The notes beneath the pieces were generated by a model, which saw only the letters and a list, made by a program, of their open reading frames with translations, had not been told where the DNA came from and did no database searches. The position numbers and the translations under genes were made by a program. Below, one piece after another: positions 88 to 7,217 of a stretch of DNA of 64,000 bases (position 1 is its first letter; every line of letters starts with the position of its first letter). Origin of the DNA: Methanosarcina barkeri str. Wiesmoor (GTDB lineage Archaea; Halobacteriota; Methanosarcinia; Methanosarcinales; Methanosarcinaceae); contig NZ_CP009526.1 in the NCBI RefSeq assembly GCF_000969985.1, positions 868,001 through 932,000 of the forward strand, in the 5' to 3' direction.

Positions 88-636
88 TCAGGTTTTAAGT
101 TCTCCTACATCTTCAAGTTTTTTGATAACCCTTGCAGGATAACCCAGGGCAAGACTATTTGGAGAGATATTACGGCTAACTACGGATCCAATACCTATTA
201 TTGAGTTATCCCCGATTTCAACACCCTGCGTGATTATACATCCTGGATTTACAGAGACTCCACGTCCTATTTTTATGGGAGCCATAGTTCTCGGATATGC
301 CTGTCTTGTAGTCAAACTTCCTCTCGTATGTGCAGATAATATGCATTTATCGCCAATTTCCGAGTAATCCCCTATCGTAATTAATTCAGGGTGTATCCTG
401 TCAAAAACCACATCATAGCCGACATATACATTCTCCCCGATATTTACACCCCGCATTCTGTGCAATTTAGCTCTCCAGGAAGGAACTGGAGCGCTTGAAG
501 CAAGCCGTTCTAGAATCCAATTTTTAAAATATTTAATGCCAAAAAGAAGTTTATTACTGTGATAATGGTCCGCAATTTCGCAAAAGGTTACCTGATCTCT
601 ATTAGACACTACAGCAGTCGTACGAATACCCCCCAT
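88..636 (-). CDS. Hexapeptide-repeat (LbH) acyltransferase
   Basis: This is a 182-residue protein of the maltose/galactoside O-acetyltransferase type. From about residue 66 to 170 it has the left-handed beta-helix hexapeptide pattern (IGENVYVG, IGDYSEIGDKC, IKIGRGVSVNPG, VEIGDNSIIGIGSVV), and it ends with the usual NSLALGYPARVIKK cap. A histidine in SAHTRG is in the position of the family's catalytic base. It probably transfers an acetyl or other acyl group from CoA, or possibly from the nearby acyl carrier protein, to a hydroxyl or amino group. It is the last gene of the minus-strand carrier-protein cluster, 344 bases beyond the DUF362 gene, so membership in the same transcript is uncertain. 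The N-terminal 60 residues are not typical hexapeptide repeat. Confidence 0.8.
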   Translation of the reverse strand: MGGIRTTAVVSNRDQVTFCEIADHYHSNKLLFGIKYFKNWILERLASSAPVPSWRAKLHRMRGVNIGENVYVGYDVVFDRIHPELITIGDYSEIGDKCILSAHTRGSLTTRQAYPRTMAPIKIGRGVSVNPGCIITQGVEIGDNSIIGIGSVVSRNISPNSLALGYPARVIKKLEDVGELKT

Positions 637-980
637 TTCCCTATATATTTTTTATACTATTTTCTTGTCTATACTATTTCCTTATCAAATTATTTTATAT
701 CGTTTCTCTCTCACATTGTTTGTAATGTTTTTATCAGATTTTTTATATTTATATTTTCATTGGCATTTTGATGGATGACTAAATTTCTATAGTCATATTT
801 AATTAATTTTGACACTACTACTCTGCTGAATACTGGTGTCGAGTAAACCTCAAAATGTCGTATAGAATCGATTGCAATTATTCGGAATCATTGAATTCCT
901 GATGATTGGCTCAACCTAGTTTCCGGGATACTTGATAAACAAATTTCCAGACGACTTTCTTGTTAACCGCAACTCTCTCT
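637..980. other. Non-coding, AT-rich spacer
   Basis: There is no convincing gene in these 344 bases. The part nearest the acyltransferase (about 640-770) is a T-rich run on the plus strand, that is A-rich on the transcribed minus strand, with TATA-like stretches that could hold a promoter for the acyltransferase. I see no clear terminator hairpin. Confidence 0.4.
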
Positions 981-2120
981 TTAACTTTTGCCTCTGCTTA
1001 CAAGCTTCATAAGCAGTGATTTTTTTAATTCTACCGCATCATTAGGGCAAAGTTCGCGGCAGCAATAACAGTGAATGCACTTTTCCTCGTTAATTTTGAG
1101 TGTTCGGTTTATTTCCTCTATGGCATGTGCCGAACAGTTCGAAACGCAGGCTTTACAAAGTGCACAGTTTGAAGTGTTAATAATTGGTCTTACAGCTAAC
1201 TGCTTTCTAAGGATTCTCATAAGGAAAGCTGGCATGTAAGCAGTTATTCCACCTTCAGGGCTTTTGAATCTGACCTTTATCTTTTCCAGAGGTACTCCTA
1301 TAATTTCGGGATGTTCGGTTCCGAAACCTCTTTCGAGTGCAGCTTTATTTGTAGGGACCTTTAAAGGATCGATTCCTATAAGCTCAGAGGCTACAATATC
1401 CAGGGCTACACAGTTATAACTTGCCATAATTACACCTGCAAGGACAGGTGTACCATTGGATGGGCCATTTCCTTCCATTCCGATTACCCCATCCATAACT
1501 GCAAGCTGGGGCTTGACAACAGAATATATATCCACAACCGCTTCCCCAAAACGGCGGCGGTCTTCCAGGAAATGAGCTTGTTTTCTGGTTTTCTGAGGTA
1601 TGGCGCCGAAGAAATTTTTGATTGCCCCCGTATACAATGTAAGTTCATGGGTCTTAAGCTTTGGAAGCGAGATTACTATATCTGCCTCAAGTACAGCTTT
1701 TGAGATGTACAGATGAGAAAACTGCCTTGCGCCCGGAACATCAACTTCAATAAAACCTGAGGTCTCAAAATTGATAAGTTCAACCCCATGATCGGAAGCA
1801 ACATCCTCAATGCCGGACGCTTTAAGCGCTTGCGAAGTTGTAGTAGTTCCGGGTTTTACAATGCCGGACCCATCTCCTATGACTGGAATGCCTCCAGCTT
1901 CCAAGACCAGTTCGCACATAGCGGACACTATCGCCGGATGGGTGGTGACGGCATCCTCTGGTGGTCGGATAGAAAGCACATTGGGTTTGAGGAGCACGCG
2001 GCTGCCAGGAACTATAACCTTCTCAAGTCCACCTATCAGGTTCAGTGCTTCTTTTACTGCTTTTTTAGCATCCGAGTAGTCCTGGCATTCAACAATTGAG
2101 ACCTTTGTATTCATATTCAC
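981..2120 (-). CDS. DUF362 protein with C-terminal 2[4Fe-4S] ferredoxin domain
   Basis: The 379-residue product has an N-terminal DUF362 domain (about residues 8-260; LKPNVL, GDGSG, SLPKLKTHELTLYTGAIKNF, MDGVIGMEGNGPSNG). A short C-terminal ferredoxin module follows with two CX2CX2CX3C clusters (CALCKACVSNC and CIHCYCCRELC). DUF362 proteins are widespread in anaerobes, often next to redox or cofactor genes, and most have no proven reaction. Here the gene follows the NadE-like gene in a carrier-protein cluster, so an electron-transfer or reductive step on the cluster's product is a reasonable inference. The start is an ATG with a second ATG-like codon close by; length agrees with other DUF362-ferredoxin fusions. 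Confidence 0.85.
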   Translation of the reverse strand: MNMNTKVSIVECQDYSDAKKAVKEALNLIGGLEKVIVPGSRVLLKPNVLSIRPPEDAVTTHPAIVSAMCELVLEAGGIPVIGDGSGIVKPGTTTTSQALKASGIEDVASDHGVELINFETSGFIEVDVPGARQFSHLYISKAVLEADIVISLPKLKTHELTLYTGAIKNFFGAIPQKTRKQAHFLEDRRRFGEAVVDIYSVVKPQLAVMDGVIGMEGNGPSNGTPVLAGVIMASYNCVALDIVASELIGIDPLKVPTNKAALERGFGTEHPEIIGVPLEKIKVRFKSPEGGITAYMPAFLMRILRKQLAVRPIINTSNCALCKACVSNCSAHAIEEINRTLKINEEKCIHCYCCRELCPNDAVELKKSLLMKLVSRGKS

Positions 2121-2314
2121 ACTTTTGGATTCGTGATTAAGTTTATTCTCACAATGATATTATGTGAAAGTACTCTGCCAGAAAGGCTTCTGGCAGTTTA
2201 TAGGCAGGTAGTTGCTCCGGAGAAAGTTCTGTCTCGATTTTAAGCAAAGATCTGAAATTCTGATTTTAGCTGTATTTTAGCCGGTATAACTTTTTCTACA
2301 GGCGTTTTTGCAAT

Positions 2315-3307
2315 TTACCTGTTAATGTAGCAAACAGGCGGCGCGGCTCGTATATATTCTGTAGTATCTTTTATTCTACTGATGTGCCTCTGGACTTTTT
2401 CTATTGTCTCTCTGGGCAGACCGGTGTTCTTTTCAATTACTTGCAGGGGCAACTGGTGCTCCTGGGCATACAGTAGCTGATCCATTATCTGAATCGGCAT
2501 ACGCCAGTAGAATTCCTCATCAGTTGTGTAATGGTTCCAGGTATCAGCACTTGGAGGGCGTTTTATTATCTCTTCGTTAACATTGAGCAGCTTCCCCAGA
2601 GCATAAACCTGGACTTTGTAGCAGTCTGACAGAGGTTCTAGATCTACGCCCCCATCTCCATATTTCACAAACTGGCCAAGGACCATTTCGGTCTTGTTGG
2701 TCGTACCGCAAACTGCGTAATTCATCGTTTCAGCACACATATATTGAACGAGCATTCTGGATCTCTGTTTAACACCCTGCAATCCTATCAATTCCAGATA
2801 GTCGTTTGCTTTTAACCTGTGTCTTGCGACGATTTCACCATTTTTTACCAGGTGTATATAAGGAACATTTAGCAGGCCAGTGTTAAGGAAATCAGGCAGT
2901 GCCAGCGACGTTTTATGTATTCTGGCATCATACTCAGGGCAGGTTCTCTTTATAATCTGTTCTTTCTTATCATAGATATTAAGCGATCTCAAGATTGGAG
3001 AGATAGGCACTTCTTCATACGACACACCAAGGCTTTCACAGATCTCCGCTCCCAAGGCCTTGCTGGAAGGGGCAGATTCCTCTTCAGGAAGGAGAAGTCC
3101 ATATACTTTTTCTTTTCCGAGTTCCTGTACACATAGTGTAAGTATTACGGCTGAGTCAATTCCTCCCGAAACCCCTATAACAACTCCTTTTTTCTTAAAA
3201 CTCGCTACCTGGTCTCTAATAAAACCCCTGAGCTTTAAAGCTATATTCCCAATATTTCCATTGAGTTCTTCTATTATATTTATGCTCACTTCTTCTGCGA
3301 TTTGCAT
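2315..3307 (-). CDS. nadE: NAD synthetase-like PP-loop ATP pyrophosphatase
   Basis: This 330-residue protein has the NadE PP-loop (SGGIDSA near residue 46) and the later NAD synthetase signature region CGTTNKTEMVLGQFVKYGDGGVDLEPL. The family makes NAD from deamido-NAD by adenylating a carboxylate and attacking it with ammonia. It has no glutaminase domain, so it would use free ammonia or a partner. It carries an insertion around residues 95-165 and a C-terminal extension, making it longer than the typical 250-280-residue archaeal NadE. It sits inside an ACP/adenylation cluster beside a second PP-loop enzyme. It may therefore be a dedicated amide-forming enzyme rather than the housekeeping NAD synthetase; this is inference, and which is true depends on whether another nadE exists in the genome. 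Confidence 0.8.
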   Translation of the reverse strand: MQIAEEVSINIIEELNGNIGNIALKLRGFIRDQVASFKKKGVVIGVSGGIDSAVILTLCVQELGKEKVYGLLLPEEESAPSSKALGAEICESLGVSYEEVPISPILRSLNIYDKKEQIIKRTCPEYDARIHKTSLALPDFLNTGLLNVPYIHLVKNGEIVARHRLKANDYLELIGLQGVKQRSRMLVQYMCAETMNYAVCGTTNKTEMVLGQFVKYGDGGVDLEPLSDCYKVQVYALGKLLNVNEEIIKRPPSADTWNHYTTDEEFYWRMPIQIMDQLLYAQEHQLPLQVIEKNTGLPRETIEKVQRHISRIKDTTEYIRAAPPVCYINR

Positions 3308-3364
3308 AATATTGCCCCCTTAAATAATCAGATTTTAGAATTAGGCTGTCCAATGTCCAAATTT

Positions 3365-3406
3365 TACTGTTCCAATTATACTGTTCCAATTATACTGTTC
3401 AAATTA
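3365..3406. repeat. 14-bp tandem repeat, 3 copies
   Basis: The unit TACTGTTCCAATTA begins at 3365, 3379 and 3393, the third copy with a substitution (TTCAAATTA). It lies in the 129-base gap between the NadE-like gene and the upstream PP-loop gene. Confidence 0.8.
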
Positions 3407-3436
3407 ACTACTGTAATTAAACTCTTTATCTTAAAA

Positions 3437-4474
3437 TCAAATTTTAGCTAGTATTTTTTGTGATTTCTTTACTTTCAGTTTAAACTTTCTTGCAGCCTCT
3501 TCTATCAATGGCTGTGACAATTCCTGATTAATTTTTTTAAGTCCTTCTTCTCTTGACATTTCTCCGCTTCGGACAAGCCCTGCTACGTCAAAGGCATATG
3601 GATGAAACCCGTATTTCTCCAGGTGGTTGTAACAGGCAAAGGAATTCAATGTACAGTTGGTTGAATTGCTGTCATTGATTCCCGGAAGTTCCCACCCGAT
3701 TTCCAGCAGTGTCTCAAGCACTTTGTCTTCACTGTAATCCCAGAGACATAGAGGATGTAGAATGCTCGGAACGTTCTCATCTATGTTCTCAAGAACTTCT
3801 TTTTTCAGGAGGAAAATTTCGTCCTTATCCTCGATGTCTATTTTCTGAAGCTGTTTCTCAAATAAGCTTCTGGACCACTGGATAAAATTGACTGACAGGT
3901 TGATTATGGGATTAGGAGACTGTCCAGCTGTAAAGGCAAATACGATGAAAGGTGCTTTTTGAAGAATGGCCTGCTCTATCAGCTTCTGTTTAATGATAGT
4001 GATGCAAATGTTGCATATGTCACTGGCTCGATATTTGGCGAATCTTGGAAATGCATCATATGACTCTGCAGCTTTTCGGAATGTATCATATAAAATTTCC
4101 TTTTCCATTGTCAACTGGAAATAATCGCATCCTGTGATCTCGCACATTTTTTTTGCATTCATTATTGCGTTTTCTGAAATGAACCCGTTATCGAACTGAA
4201 CAGCCAGTACCTTAAGGAAAGGATAGTCTTTTTTGAGCTTGTAGAGCGTGTACGACGAATCTTTCCCACCTGAAAGTGCATAAATTATATCGTAGTTACC
4301 CTTTCCCCTGTACTGCTCAAAAAGTTTTTCAATTCTGGTCAGGTATTCATTTTTTTCCTGTGGACTAAGTGGGGTATATGTCTCACAAAAGTGACAGAGG
4401 CCAGTTTTTTCATTAATTTGTATACCTGGAATCTCGGAATCCAGAATACACTTTTTACACACTAGCTTTGACAT
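3437..4474 (-). CDS. PP-loop ATPase of the N-acetyl sugar amidotransferase / AANH type
   Basis: The 345-residue protein opens with a cysteine zinc-binding pattern (CKKC near residue 6, CHFC near residue 28), then the PP-loop SGGKDSS near residue 69, and a further CNIC motif. This layout matches WbpG/PseA-like amidotransferases and related adenine-nucleotide alpha-hydrolases, which adenylate a carbonyl or carboxyl and add nitrogen or sulfur. The start overlaps the end of the adenylating-enzyme gene by 20 bases, so the two are translationally coupled. With an ACP in the same operon, the acceptor could be a carrier-bound acyl group; PP-loop enzymes of this superfamily are known to install thioamides in closthioamide biosynthesis. 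A sugar amidotransferase role is the main alternative. Confidence 0.8.
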   Translation of the reverse strand: MSKLVCKKCILDSEIPGIQINEKTGLCHFCETYTPLSPQEKNEYLTRIEKLFEQYRGKGNYDIIYALSGGKDSSYTLYKLKKDYPFLKVLAVQFDNGFISENAIMNAKKMCEITGCDYFQLTMEKEILYDTFRKAAESYDAFPRFAKYRASDICNICITIIKQKLIEQAILQKAPFIVFAFTAGQSPNPIINLSVNFIQWSRSLFEKQLQKIDIEDKDEIFLLKKEVLENIDENVPSILHPLCLWDYSEDKVLETLLEIGWELPGINDSNSTNCTLNSFACYNHLEKYGFHPYAFDVAGLVRSGEMSREEGLKKINQELSQPLIEEAARKFKLKVKKSQKILAKI

Positions 4475-5933
4475 GTTGGTACTCCTCTATAATGGATCGG
4501 TTGGATATTTTTCCATTCTCGCTTATGGGAAGGTGATCAATGAATAGTATTTCTCTTGGACGCAGGTATCCTGGCAGGCTTTTTCGACAGAATGCATACA
4601 ACTTTTCAATTTCTGTTCCTTTTGCAGGTATGACCATGAGGCTAATTGCGGTTCCCATAAGTTCATGGTGCACAGGTACGACAAAAACCCTGGATACTTC
4701 GTTATTTTCCTCTATGCTTTTCTCAATTTCTCTTGGGTTAACACGATGATCACCGATTTTTATAAGGTCATCCTTGCGTCCCAGCAGTTTGATATATCCG
4801 TTGGGTAATTTCTGTGCAAGATCACCGGTATGCAGCCATCCATCTATAATTTTCATCCCAGTGGCAATTTCATCATCGAGGTAACCCAGCATAATGTTGT
4901 CTCCGGTAGCAACCAGTTCACCCGTAATATTAGGTTTTGCTGGTCTGTACTCGGAATCAAAGACATCCAGTATAACCCCTGGAATTGCTTTTCCTATAGT
5001 GTCAACGAGCTCATTCACATCTTCTGCTGGCAGATAAGCAAGTCTTGCCGTAGCTTCAGTTTGCCCGTACATCGGTAGAATCTCCAGATCTGGAGCTAAT
5101 TCCCTTATGTCGTTTACAATATCCCGATCCATTTCTCCACCTGCTGATGCAGCGGTTCTGACTCTTGAGAAATCCTTTTTGAATCTATCCGGATATCGAA
5201 GGAGTATACGATAGGTACTGGGTACCCCATAGAATATGGATATGTCTGATCCTATAAGGTTGAAAATAGAGTCTATGAAATTCATATTTCCAATCCTGAC
5301 TGAGCTGCCAGCTACCAGATGGGAGTTAATTATGGAATTCCCAAAAGCGTGATGTGGGGATATCACCAGTGCTCCTTTATCTCTGGAAGTTATCCTGAGT
5401 ACCTTTATTATTGACTCTGCGTTTGCTACCAGATTTCTGTTACTTAACATTACACCTTTTGGGGTGCCTGTCGTGCCTGAAGTGTAAAGGACGAGCTGTA
5501 GTTGTGGATTATTCACTTCTGTTTCAATCTTCTTACGCAAAAACTCTCCAGAAGTATTGCTGGAAATAATTACTACAGTTCCAAAACGCTCAAAAAAGTC
5601 CTCTCCAAATCTTGAGTATTGTGTATCGGTTACGATGATATTGTTGACATGGGCGGCATCAAGGATTTTCTCAATACTGAATTTAGGAAATTCTATTGGT
5701 AGAGGAATTGCGATATTCGCAGATCGATATACTGCCATGAGCACTTTCACATACAGCATGCCTGATTCTGCCAGTATTGAAAATCGGCAGTGGTTAAAAT
5801 CCATTAAAAGTGAAGCAATTGTGTTTATATCATTGTCAAGGCAGCTATAGGAAATTGAACTCTTTCCCTCTTCCAGGGCAATGCTTTGAGGAGTTTTTCT
5901 GGCGTACTCAGTGATATACGCATCAATTCGCAT
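4455..5933 (-). CDS. Stand-alone acyl/aminoacyl adenylating enzyme (AMP-binding, ANL family)
   Basis: All ANL core motifs are present in this 492-residue protein: the phosphate loop YTSGTTGTPKG near residue 150, YGQTEA near 290, the GWLHTGD aspartate near 370, GRKDDLIKIGDHRVNPREIE in the hinge region, and the C-terminal catalytic lysine in ENGKIS near 475. It activates a carboxylic acid as an adenylate and loads it on a thiol. Only 6 bases separate it from the acyl carrier protein gene, so the carrier protein is the likely acceptor rather than CoA. It lacks condensation or thioesterase domains, so this is a discrete A-type enzyme and not a modular NRPS. The substrate cannot be read with confidence from the sequence. 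Confidence 0.9.
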   Translation of the reverse strand: MRIDAYITEYARKTPQSIALEEGKSSISYSCLDNDINTIASLLMDFNHCRFSILAESGMLYVKVLMAVYRSANIAIPLPIEFPKFSIEKILDAAHVNNIIVTDTQYSRFGEDFFERFGTVVIISSNTSGEFLRKKIETEVNNPQLQLVLYTSGTTGTPKGVMLSNRNLVANAESIIKVLRITSRDKGALVISPHHAFGNSIINSHLVAGSSVRIGNMNFIDSIFNLIGSDISIFYGVPSTYRILLRYPDRFKKDFSRVRTAASAGGEMDRDIVNDIRELAPDLEILPMYGQTEATARLAYLPAEDVNELVDTIGKAIPGVILDVFDSEYRPAKPNITGELVATGDNIMLGYLDDEIATGMKIIDGWLHTGDLAQKLPNGYIKLLGRKDDLIKIGDHRVNPREIEKSIEENNEVSRVFVVPVHHELMGTAISLMVIPAKGTEIEKLYAFCRKSLPGYLRPREILFIDHLPISENGKISNRSIIEEYQHVKASV

Positions 5934-5939
5934 GCCTTT

Positions 5940-6185
5940 TCACTTCGCCAGCGTGGTAATCATATTCGTGATTCCCTGCAACGAATCAAAGTTTTCCGGT
6001 GTTAGCATATCTTCAGGAATCTCTATATAATATTTCTCGCAAATGTAGTCCATAAGTTCAAGCAGACCAATGGAATCTATAATGCCGTTTTGAGTGAGAG
6101 AATCATCATCTTTCAAGCTGCTGGTACTATCCATAAAAGAATTAGCTTTTAAGTAATCGACTATATCATTCTTTATTTGTTCCAT
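5940..6185 (-). CDS. Acyl/peptidyl carrier protein
   Basis: The 81-residue acidic helical protein carries the phosphopantetheine attachment motif DSIG, with Ser38 as the modified residue (context NGIIDSIGLLELM), followed by the usual helix III region. The ATG is preceded by a G-rich Shine-Dalgarno stretch about 10 bases upstream. It is the first gene of the operon that continues through the adenylating enzyme (6-base gap). A phosphopantetheinyl transferase gene lies just upstream on the same strand, which explains how it would become holo-protein. Archaea generally do not use ACP for fatty acid synthesis, so this one probably serves a special pathway. Confidence 0.92.
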   Translation of the reverse strand: MEQIKNDIVDYLKANSFMDSTSSLKDDDSLTQNGIIDSIGLLELMDYICEKYYIEIPEDMLTPENFDSLQGITNMITTLAK

Positions 6186-6274
6186 GTGTTATTACCCCCA
6201 ACGTTTTTCATTCAGCGGACCAGTGATCATAAATAACGCATTTCTGCCCATAATGACATGAGTCCCCAGTGATA

Positions 6275-6298
6275 ATTACGTAATACTACTATATAAAT
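6275..6298 (-). promoter_or_regulatory. Probable promoter of the ACP operon with palindrome at the start site
   Basis: Read on the minus strand, ATTTATATA (6298 to 6290) is a good archaeal TATA box about 105 bases before the ACP start codon. Six bases after it lies the perfect 10-bp palindrome ATTACGTAAT (6275-6284), where RNA polymerase would begin or a repressor could bind. The half-site TATTACG overlaps this palindrome and recurs in the twin palindromes near 20770 and 20882. The rest of 6186-6521 holds no gene. Confidence 0.45.
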
Positions 6299-6521
6299 AA
6301 TTTGAGTCACTTCTTGGCTGATAAAAACACTGGTGAAGACAAAAATTGAGTAAAATCAATTGCTTGCATCCTGATTCACTGGATGATATAATTCACTAAC
6401 TCTATAACTATATGTACTCAGTATCTCTCCCGGATAATTGGGTATTTATATGCACACAGAAAAATCCGAAAAATATAGAAAAGTGTTTAGAACTTTAAAC
6501 TTTAGATTTCATCGAAAATCT

Positions 6522-7217
6522 TCAGTCCCAGTTGCAGTCGATTTTTTGAAGACGATTTATACCAATGATATGCGATTCCGAACGGGTTACAATGGAAAAT
6601 AAATATTTGTTATCTAGAATATAAGTTGAATGATTGACACTGTTAAGATCCAGTTCTCTATTAAAAATAAGACACATTTTTTTGTTTGAAAACTTGGAAT
6701 AGGCTTCTTTTAAAGTCCATGTTTTTAAAATATCGGTTTCATCTACAGTTTCGTCCATTAGTGAAGTTTTCTTATACAGGTTTTTAAAATTACTTTTAAG
6801 ATCCAGCTTTCTCGTAAGTTCAATATCAATACCAACATCAACCTTTGAGATTGCAAGGGCTGCAAGGCGTTCAGTATAGGATATACAAATGCATAGTTCA
6901 TTGTGATTAAGGATGCAGACCTTTCCATATTCGTCTTTGTATGTGGATATTTCGGAAGCGGATTGCTCATTAGCAACTTTGCATGTGATGTGTTTTAAAA
7001 CCGTTCTGGAGACAATATATCTTTTCTTAAAGTGACTTGTCTTCAACCTCTTGAGATATTCCAGTTCTATTCTGCTGAGGTAACTTGTATTAAATGTATC
7101 ATAATTATCCAGGTCAACAAGAAAAACGAGAACATCGCTCTGTTGCCACAGGTATGGGATGTGTCCAAGAGAAACGGGAAAGGGCAACTTTATATATTTG
7201 TTGTACATGTAGTCCAC
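6522..7217 (-). CDS. 4'-phosphopantetheinyl transferase, Sfp type
   Basis: The 231-residue protein has the two Sfp-family signatures: VGIDIELTRK near residue 126, with the Mg-binding Asp and Glu, and KTWTLKEAYSKF near residue 165 (the W-x-x-KEA motif). It would transfer phosphopantetheine from CoA to Ser38 of the neighbouring carrier protein. The first start is GTG, with an in-frame ATG three codons later; either could be used. It lies 336 bases upstream of the ACP operon and may have its own promoter. The DNA is very AT-rich. Sfp-type enzymes occur only sporadically in archaea, which supports a horizontally acquired pathway. Confidence 0.88.
   Translation of the reverse strand: MDYMYNKYIKLPFPVSLGHIPYLWQQSDVLVFLVDLDNYDTFNTSYLSRIELEYLKRLKTSHFKKRYIVSRTVLKHITCKVANEQSASEISTYKDEYGKVCILNHNELCICISYTERLAALAISKVDVGIDIELTRKLDLKSNFKNLYKKTSLMDETVDETDILKTWTLKEAYSKFSNKKMCLIFNRELDLNSVNHSTYILDNKYLFSIVTRSESHIIGINRLQKIDCNWD

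Follow-up and report, generated by a model that had tools for sequence, protein, structure and literature searches.

The window analysed here, a 64,000-nucleotide stretch of the Methanosarcina barkeri str. Wiesmoor genome (C2:868001-932000 of 4.9 Mb, 99.95% complete, with Methanosarcina as nearest relatives in our searches), carries a cluster of seven genes built around an acyl carrier protein (ACP). The cluster appears to encode a thiotemplated pathway that probably inserts sulfur and whose enzyme set is new, in an archaeal host. We give an even chance to the proposal that this dedicated, carrier-protein-templated pathway makes a thioamide acyl-ACP. The proposal draws on three invariant cysteines of a PP-loop enzyme, and on the retained linkage of this enzyme with the ACP and with a NAD-synthetase paralogue, NadE2. 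Carrier-protein chemistry is sporadic in archaea, and no archaeal thiotemplated thioamide pathway was found in the literature searched.

The PP-loop enzyme contained a zinc ribbon (Cys6/9/27/30) and a nearly invariant SGGKDS motif at residues 68-73. Further along the chain, Cys154-x-x-Cys157 and Cys274 were invariant in a 22-sequence alignment that extended down to ~44-50% identity. These three cysteines (the Cys trio) display the pattern of [4Fe-4S] sulfur-inserting enzymes, and the protein does not appear to be simply a sugar amidotransferase. The closest counterpart in chemistry is CtaC, an AANH enzyme of closthioamide biosynthesis in Ruminiclostridium cellulolyticum, which makes thioamides on carrier-bound peptides, acts only on the carrier-bound substrate, and needs Asp77/Ser78 and a [4Fe-4S] site formed by Cys154, Cys157 and Cys284 (Dunbar et al. 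2019, PMC6772006). The window enzyme has Asp72/Ser73 and, at closely similar positions, Cys154/157/274, and its action can therefore be read as CtaC-like. About 75% of 100 CtaC homologues were located near thiotemplated genes, mostly in anaerobes (PMC6772006), and the window enzyme likewise had an ACP neighbour, in 35 of 35 Methanosarcinaceae loci and 10 of 11 distant loci. The two systems also share the PP-loop/AANH enzyme with its ATP motif, a free-standing carrier protein with an adenylating enzyme, and an anaerobic host. They differ in their remaining components. Closthioamide biosynthesis uses β-alanine and 4-hydroxybenzoate and includes ATP-grasp, peptidyl transferase and transglutaminase genes, all of which the window set lacks, whereas NadE2, a DUF362-ferredoxin, the acyltransferase and the archaeal host are found only on the side of the window.

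The succession of PP-loop, CxxC and a later third Cys is also seen in the [4Fe-4S] tRNA thiolases TtcA, TtuA and NcsA. In a profile alignment, Cys154/157 fell on the CSYC motif of the genome's own NcsA-type thiolase, while the likeness of the third cysteine, Cys274, was topological only. Unlike this NcsA, the window enzyme lacked the C-terminal zinc-finger cysteines, and its genomic partner was the ACP.

The trio was present in all 14 of the carrier- or non-ribosomal peptide synthetase (NRPS)-associated PP-loop proteins compared, whereas just one of the 15 sugar amidotransferases in the sample had it. The trio is thus not exclusive to carrier-linked enzymes. The exception, which came up in a wider sample, was L146:2989-4194, on a Rhodobacteraceae plasmid, a sugar amidotransferase with CWHC and a distal Cys resembling those of sulfur-inserting enzymes. 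Relatives with the trio on bacterial plasmids included a Roseovarius NRPS, a Streptomyces condensation-domain fusion and another Streptomyces gene. In the Roseovarius protein, the PP-loop domain was inserted in the C-terminal part of the adenylation domain with the trio kept, and looks like an interrupted adenylation domain carrying a tailoring PP-loop; its gene set (L118:9424-17472) also held an ACP, an acyl-CoA dehydrogenase and a methyltransferase. The last-named Streptomyces gene (L145:7704-10654) was situated near an ACP and a ketosynthase. As a criterion, the trio may be of use in telling probable sulfur-inserting members apart from the sugar amidotransferases with which they are lumped in current family models.

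The seven open reading frames occupied the minus strand from 88 to 7217, exactly where the initial annotation had placed them. Its family assignments (Hexapep, DUF362 with Fer4, NAD_synthase, AMP-binding, PP-binding and ACPS superfamily) held, and so did the ACP attachment serine, Ser38 in DSIG. Only the genes for the ACP, the adenylating enzyme (ANL) and the PP-loop enzyme were tightly packed, with the 6-base gap between the first two and the 20-base overlap between the last two that had been described before; the other gaps measured 129-344 bases. Within the set there was no glutaminase or sulfur-supply gene. The features were as follows.

88..636, minus strand: hexapeptide acyltransferase, left-handed β-helix (Hexapep, E 2e-10)
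981..2120, minus strand: DUF362 domain joined at its C-terminal end to a two-[4Fe-4S] ferredoxin (DUF362, E 4e-61, plus Fer4)
2315..3307, minus strand: NadE2, NAD-synthetase paralogue, 330 aa (NF002048, 475 bits, cut-off 313)
2813..2977, minus strand: NadE2 insertion of ~50 residues (about 111-165), absent from canonical NadE in alignments
3437..4474, minus strand: 345-aa enzyme of the PP-loop (AANH) type (TIGR03573, 120 bits, cut-off 203)
3653..3655, minus strand: Cys274 codon, within motif NSTNC; third of the predicted [4Fe-4S] ligands, from alignments
4004..4015, minus strand: codons of the CNIC motif (Cys154, Cys157), predicted [4Fe-4S] ligands, from alignments and the CtaC positions in PMC6772006
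4455..5933, minus strand: stand-alone adenylating enzyme (ANL), 492 aa, long-chain acyl-CoA ligase-like (AMP-binding, E 1e-49)
5940..6185, minus strand: ACP, 81 aa, phosphopantetheine attachment at Ser38 in DSIG, codon 6074-6072 (PP-binding, 21.7 bits, cut-off 20.8)
6522..7217, minus strand: Sfp-type phosphopantetheinyl transferase (PPTase) (ACPS superfamily, 21.4 bits, cut-off 25; NF047349 AusB, E 3e-11)

The linkage of these genes was examined in 36 loci sampled around ANL relatives in Methanosarcinaceae, onto which the seven window proteins were mapped. One locus, L055, was set aside as a different pathway, leaving 35. The ACP, ANL and PP-loop genes were contiguous in all 35, and NadE2 came next in 34. 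The PPTase was located within the locus in 27 and the DUF362-ferredoxin in 21, while a FabG-like short-chain dehydrogenase/reductase gene, not found at the window's own locus, stood immediately past NadE2 in 15. Unrelated genes flanked the set, namely uppS on one side and a membrane protein with a radical-SAM-like gene on the other, and this flanking synteny was kept across much of Methanosarcina. Compared with two relatives, each of the seven genes had a ratio of nonsynonymous to synonymous substitution (dN/dS) of 0.06-0.24, resembling the uppS control. Recurrence in dozens of genomes together with these low ratios for every gene means that the association is not due to chance. The genes stayed linked in nearly all relatives, and the refuting condition named in the initial annotation, a set unlinked in all of them, was not borne out.

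A scan with one genome per species returned 38 PP-loop relatives, archaeal without exception; among them were Methanoregula metagenome-assembled genomes (MAGs) and one MAG labelled Thermoplasmata (L091), at ~50% identity. The flanking genes of the latter resemble those of Methanoregula locus L089, so its contig may be misbinned. Among the sampled Methanomicrobiales, 8 of 199 genomes had the set. NadE2, ACP and PP-loop genes occurred together in ten distant loci, mostly Methanomicrobiales, at ~50% identity and in varying order and strand; in an eleventh, L143, the ACP was not detected. No other evidence speaks as strongly for joint action of the three proteins as this linkage, kept despite rearrangement. 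Where an ANL was found in the distant loci it belonged to another lineage (30-35% identity to that of the window), and in eight of them a GNAT-type gene, ~350-375 aa in Methanomicrobiales loci, replaced the hexapeptide acyltransferase. At L140:7005-9831, also in Methanomicrobiales, the ACP/PP-loop/NadE2/GNAT set adjoined a HisH/HisF-type acetamidino sugar amidotransferase, so that both PP-loop types were neighbours. No relatives were found in viral and phage collections.

In whole-genome searches at a permissive threshold, the cluster's ACP carried the only PP-binding domain (PF00550) found, and the cluster's PPTase was the only member of the ACPS superfamily (PF01648). The organism's carrier machinery therefore seems to be dedicated to this one pathway. 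The PPTase retained the GIDIE and KEAYSK motifs despite a score just under the ACPS cut-off, and the DSI motif of the ACP was kept in distant copies. The model of the cispentacin ACP, AmcB, gave the window ACP 46.5 of 80 bits, which is below its cut-off. In an alignment with LgrA anchored on the HLxAG motif, the ANL had Ala in place of the Asp at the α-amino-acid recognition position. Since this Asp is the residue that binds α-amino groups, a plain carboxylic acid is the likelier substrate than an α-amino acid, judging from the sequence. An Arg shortly past the YGxTEA motif was invariant in both ANL lineages and could pair with a second carboxylate, a hint too weak for naming the substrate.

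NadE2 passed the NCBIfam model NF002048 (PRK00876), which is named NAD(+) synthase. Plain NAD synthesis was nevertheless rejected for NadE2, as a canonical NadE is encoded elsewhere (C2:3120567, E 3e-89). Aligned with this protein, NadE2 kept SGGIDSA, GTTNKTE and KYGDGGVDLEP, and ~50 additional residues separated one half of its site from the other. Its structural model matched NH3-dependent NAD synthetases with Z 26 and LarE with Z ~18. It thus shares fold and ATP/ammonia-site motifs with NAD synthetase, while differing as a second, enlarged copy nearly always accompanied by ACP and PP-loop genes. Most simply, NadE2 can be taken for an amide synthetase that uses ATP and ammonia and whose acid substrate has changed; it would supply the amide for thiolation by the PP-loop enzyme. 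Across Methanosarcinaceae, members of NF002048 are probably mis-annotated as NAD(+) synthase.

The terminal acyltransferases that accompany the core belong to two unrelated folds, hexapeptide and GNAT-type, a hint that the acyl chain is passed on to an acceptor. In several loci (L028-L030, L116, L138, L140) the cluster was situated among surface-polysaccharide glycosyltransferases, flippases, aminotransferases and dehydrogenases, and aminosugar genes were also near several copies. The DUF362-ferredoxin was not among the genes seen in distant loci, where it had been included in the queries, and is regarded as accessory.

The gene set, its linkage and selection, the Cys trio, the sole ACP and PPTase and the second NadE are observed; the reactions, their order, the substrate, the sulfur donor, the product and the acceptor are inferred as follows. 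The PPTase would turn the ACP into its holo form, a step well supported by gene content, and the ANL would adenylate a non-α-amino carboxylic acid and load it onto the ACP, which is also well supported. NadE2 could plausibly use ATP and ammonia to amidate a carboxylate of the acid, whether bound or free. With a predicted [4Fe-4S] cluster on Cys154/157/274, the PP-loop enzyme would adenylate the amide oxygen and exchange it for sulfur while the chain remains attached to the carrier, in the manner of CtaC in closthioamide formation. The sulfur donor would be sulfide. Taken alone, this Fe-S-dependent oxygen-to-sulfur exchange on the ACP has a somewhat better than even chance of being correct. Finally, the hexapeptide acyltransferase, or the GNAT protein in Methanomicrobiales, could plausibly pass the acyl chain on to an acceptor, which is probably a surface-glycan sugar. 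The initial annotation had proposed that an acid is activated, loaded on the ACP, converted and transferred, and this frame fits everything tested. Its interpretation is partly supported, the [4Fe-4S]-type cysteines having gone unnoticed there. Among the conversions it offered (amidation, thiolation or reduction), the trio best supports thiolation, with amidation by NadE2 as the likely preceding step. Its statement that no pathway with this gene set had been described holds for the exact set in the literature searched, while the core chemistry has a counterpart in CtaC (PMC6772006).

Several observations weigh against parts of this scheme. TIGR03573 was the best family for the PP-loop enzyme, and its AlphaFold2 model (predicted local distance difference test, pLDDT, 90) matched 8wex with Z 22.6 over 319 residues, followed by NcsA and TtuA at Z 12-13, so that both the nearest family and the nearest solved structure are those of sugar amidotransferases. 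In addition to this fold, the WbuX/PseA-type N-acetyl sugar amidotransferases share the N-terminal zinc-ribbon cysteines and a C-terminal VRSG..REE segment with the window enzyme. One sugar amidotransferase linked to HisH and HisF, that of L146, has the Cys trio, and for this reason the trio alone is no proof of sulfur insertion. The tree splitting the carrier-linked from the sugar amidotransferase group had moderate support (81/77), the comparison with CtaC is one of residue positions printed in PMC6772006, and within Methanosarcina the cluster lies mostly outside glycan clusters. The main rival, kept alive by the L146 protein, is amidine formation, in which the PP-loop enzyme would adenylate an amide and add ammonia to it, as a WbuX/PseA-like amidotransferase acting on the ACP-bound chain or the final sugar, the trio being structural or inherited; the ammonia chemistry suggested by NadE2 would also suit it. 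We consider it unlikely. The TIGR03573 score fell well below the family cut-off and dropped to 74-80 bits in distant members, the trio was always present in carrier- and NRPS-linked homologues, and the constant partner was the ACP instead of HisH/HisF. In searches with both of the latter proteins, a HisH/HisF partner was missing in 82 of 83 loci, and in the single case, L140, the pair stood beside a separate amidotransferase. A plain sugar amidotransferase was rejected on the score, the lack of HisH/HisF and the Cys trio.

The other alternatives concern the role of NadE2, the route and the fate of the product. NadE2 might serve the PP-loop enzyme by donating or activating sulfur in a LarE-like way, with the amide coming from elsewhere; its fold does match LarE, and it goes with the PP-loop enzyme almost without exception. 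This appears quite improbable, as NadE2 is far closer to the NAD synthetases, its ATP/ammonia motifs are intact, and free sulfide is present in methanogens. Ordinary sugar acylation, through an ANL-ACP route like D-alanylation and with the two PP-loop enzymes working on unrelated substrates, would require only the ANL, ACP and acyltransferase. The DltA/DltC and exosortase-A-associated ANL systems indeed also consist of a stand-alone ANL and a discrete ACP. Yet both PP-loop genes stayed with the ACP in 10 of the 11 distant loci, and the models scored far below their cut-offs (DltA 139 of 560, DltC 20 of 68 and TIGR03098 213 of 592 bits), making this explanation very improbable. A third possibility leaves the proposed chemistry as it is and departs from the scheme solely in what becomes of the product, which would be released as a small molecule, such as a thioamide metal chelator or signal, without glycan decoration. 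Closthioamide itself is a small molecule, and most Methanosarcina clusters stand alone between uppS and the radical-SAM gene. However, a terminal acyltransferase was linked in most copies, several copies were inside polysaccharide clusters, and no exporter was seen in the gene set, so that this fate is possible but on the unlikely side. The fullest version of the thioamide proposal is that Methanosarcinaceae and some Methanomicrobiales make a thioamide acyl group by amidation through NadE2 and then Fe-S-dependent thiolation through the PP-loop enzyme, and attach it to a surface glycan, in a pathway that alone uses phosphopantetheine carrier chemistry in the window's genome. It would introduce a glycan modification of a new class and would be the first archaeal carrier-protein thioamide pathway, and as a whole we regard this version as rather doubtful.

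Across most sampled Methanosarcina genomes, one ACP/PPTase pair is maintained under purifying selection for a single unexplained pathway. Should the PP-loop enzyme prove to be a thioamide synthetase of the CtaC type, this chemistry would reach past bacterial antibiotics to a conserved methanogen trait, and NadE2 would become the candidate enzyme for amide formation. The question is directly testable, since Methanosarcina is genetically manipulable.

The excluded locus, L055:7447-12600, from another Methanosarcinaceae genus, held an ANL-LuxE fusion followed by LuxC, FabG and an acyltransferase 74% identical to that of the window, within a polysaccharide cluster. We rejected it as a diverged copy, given the fusion to LuxE, the adjacent LuxC and the lack of ACP, NadE2 and PP-loop genes; it represents another pathway, with FabG- and acyltransferase-type genes in common. 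Decaying copies of the cluster were also observed, at loci L117, L033 and L126. In genome G066 the ANL had an internal stop and was broken in two, the DUF362 gene was split into several pieces in G086, and the PP-loop gene contained a stop in G495.

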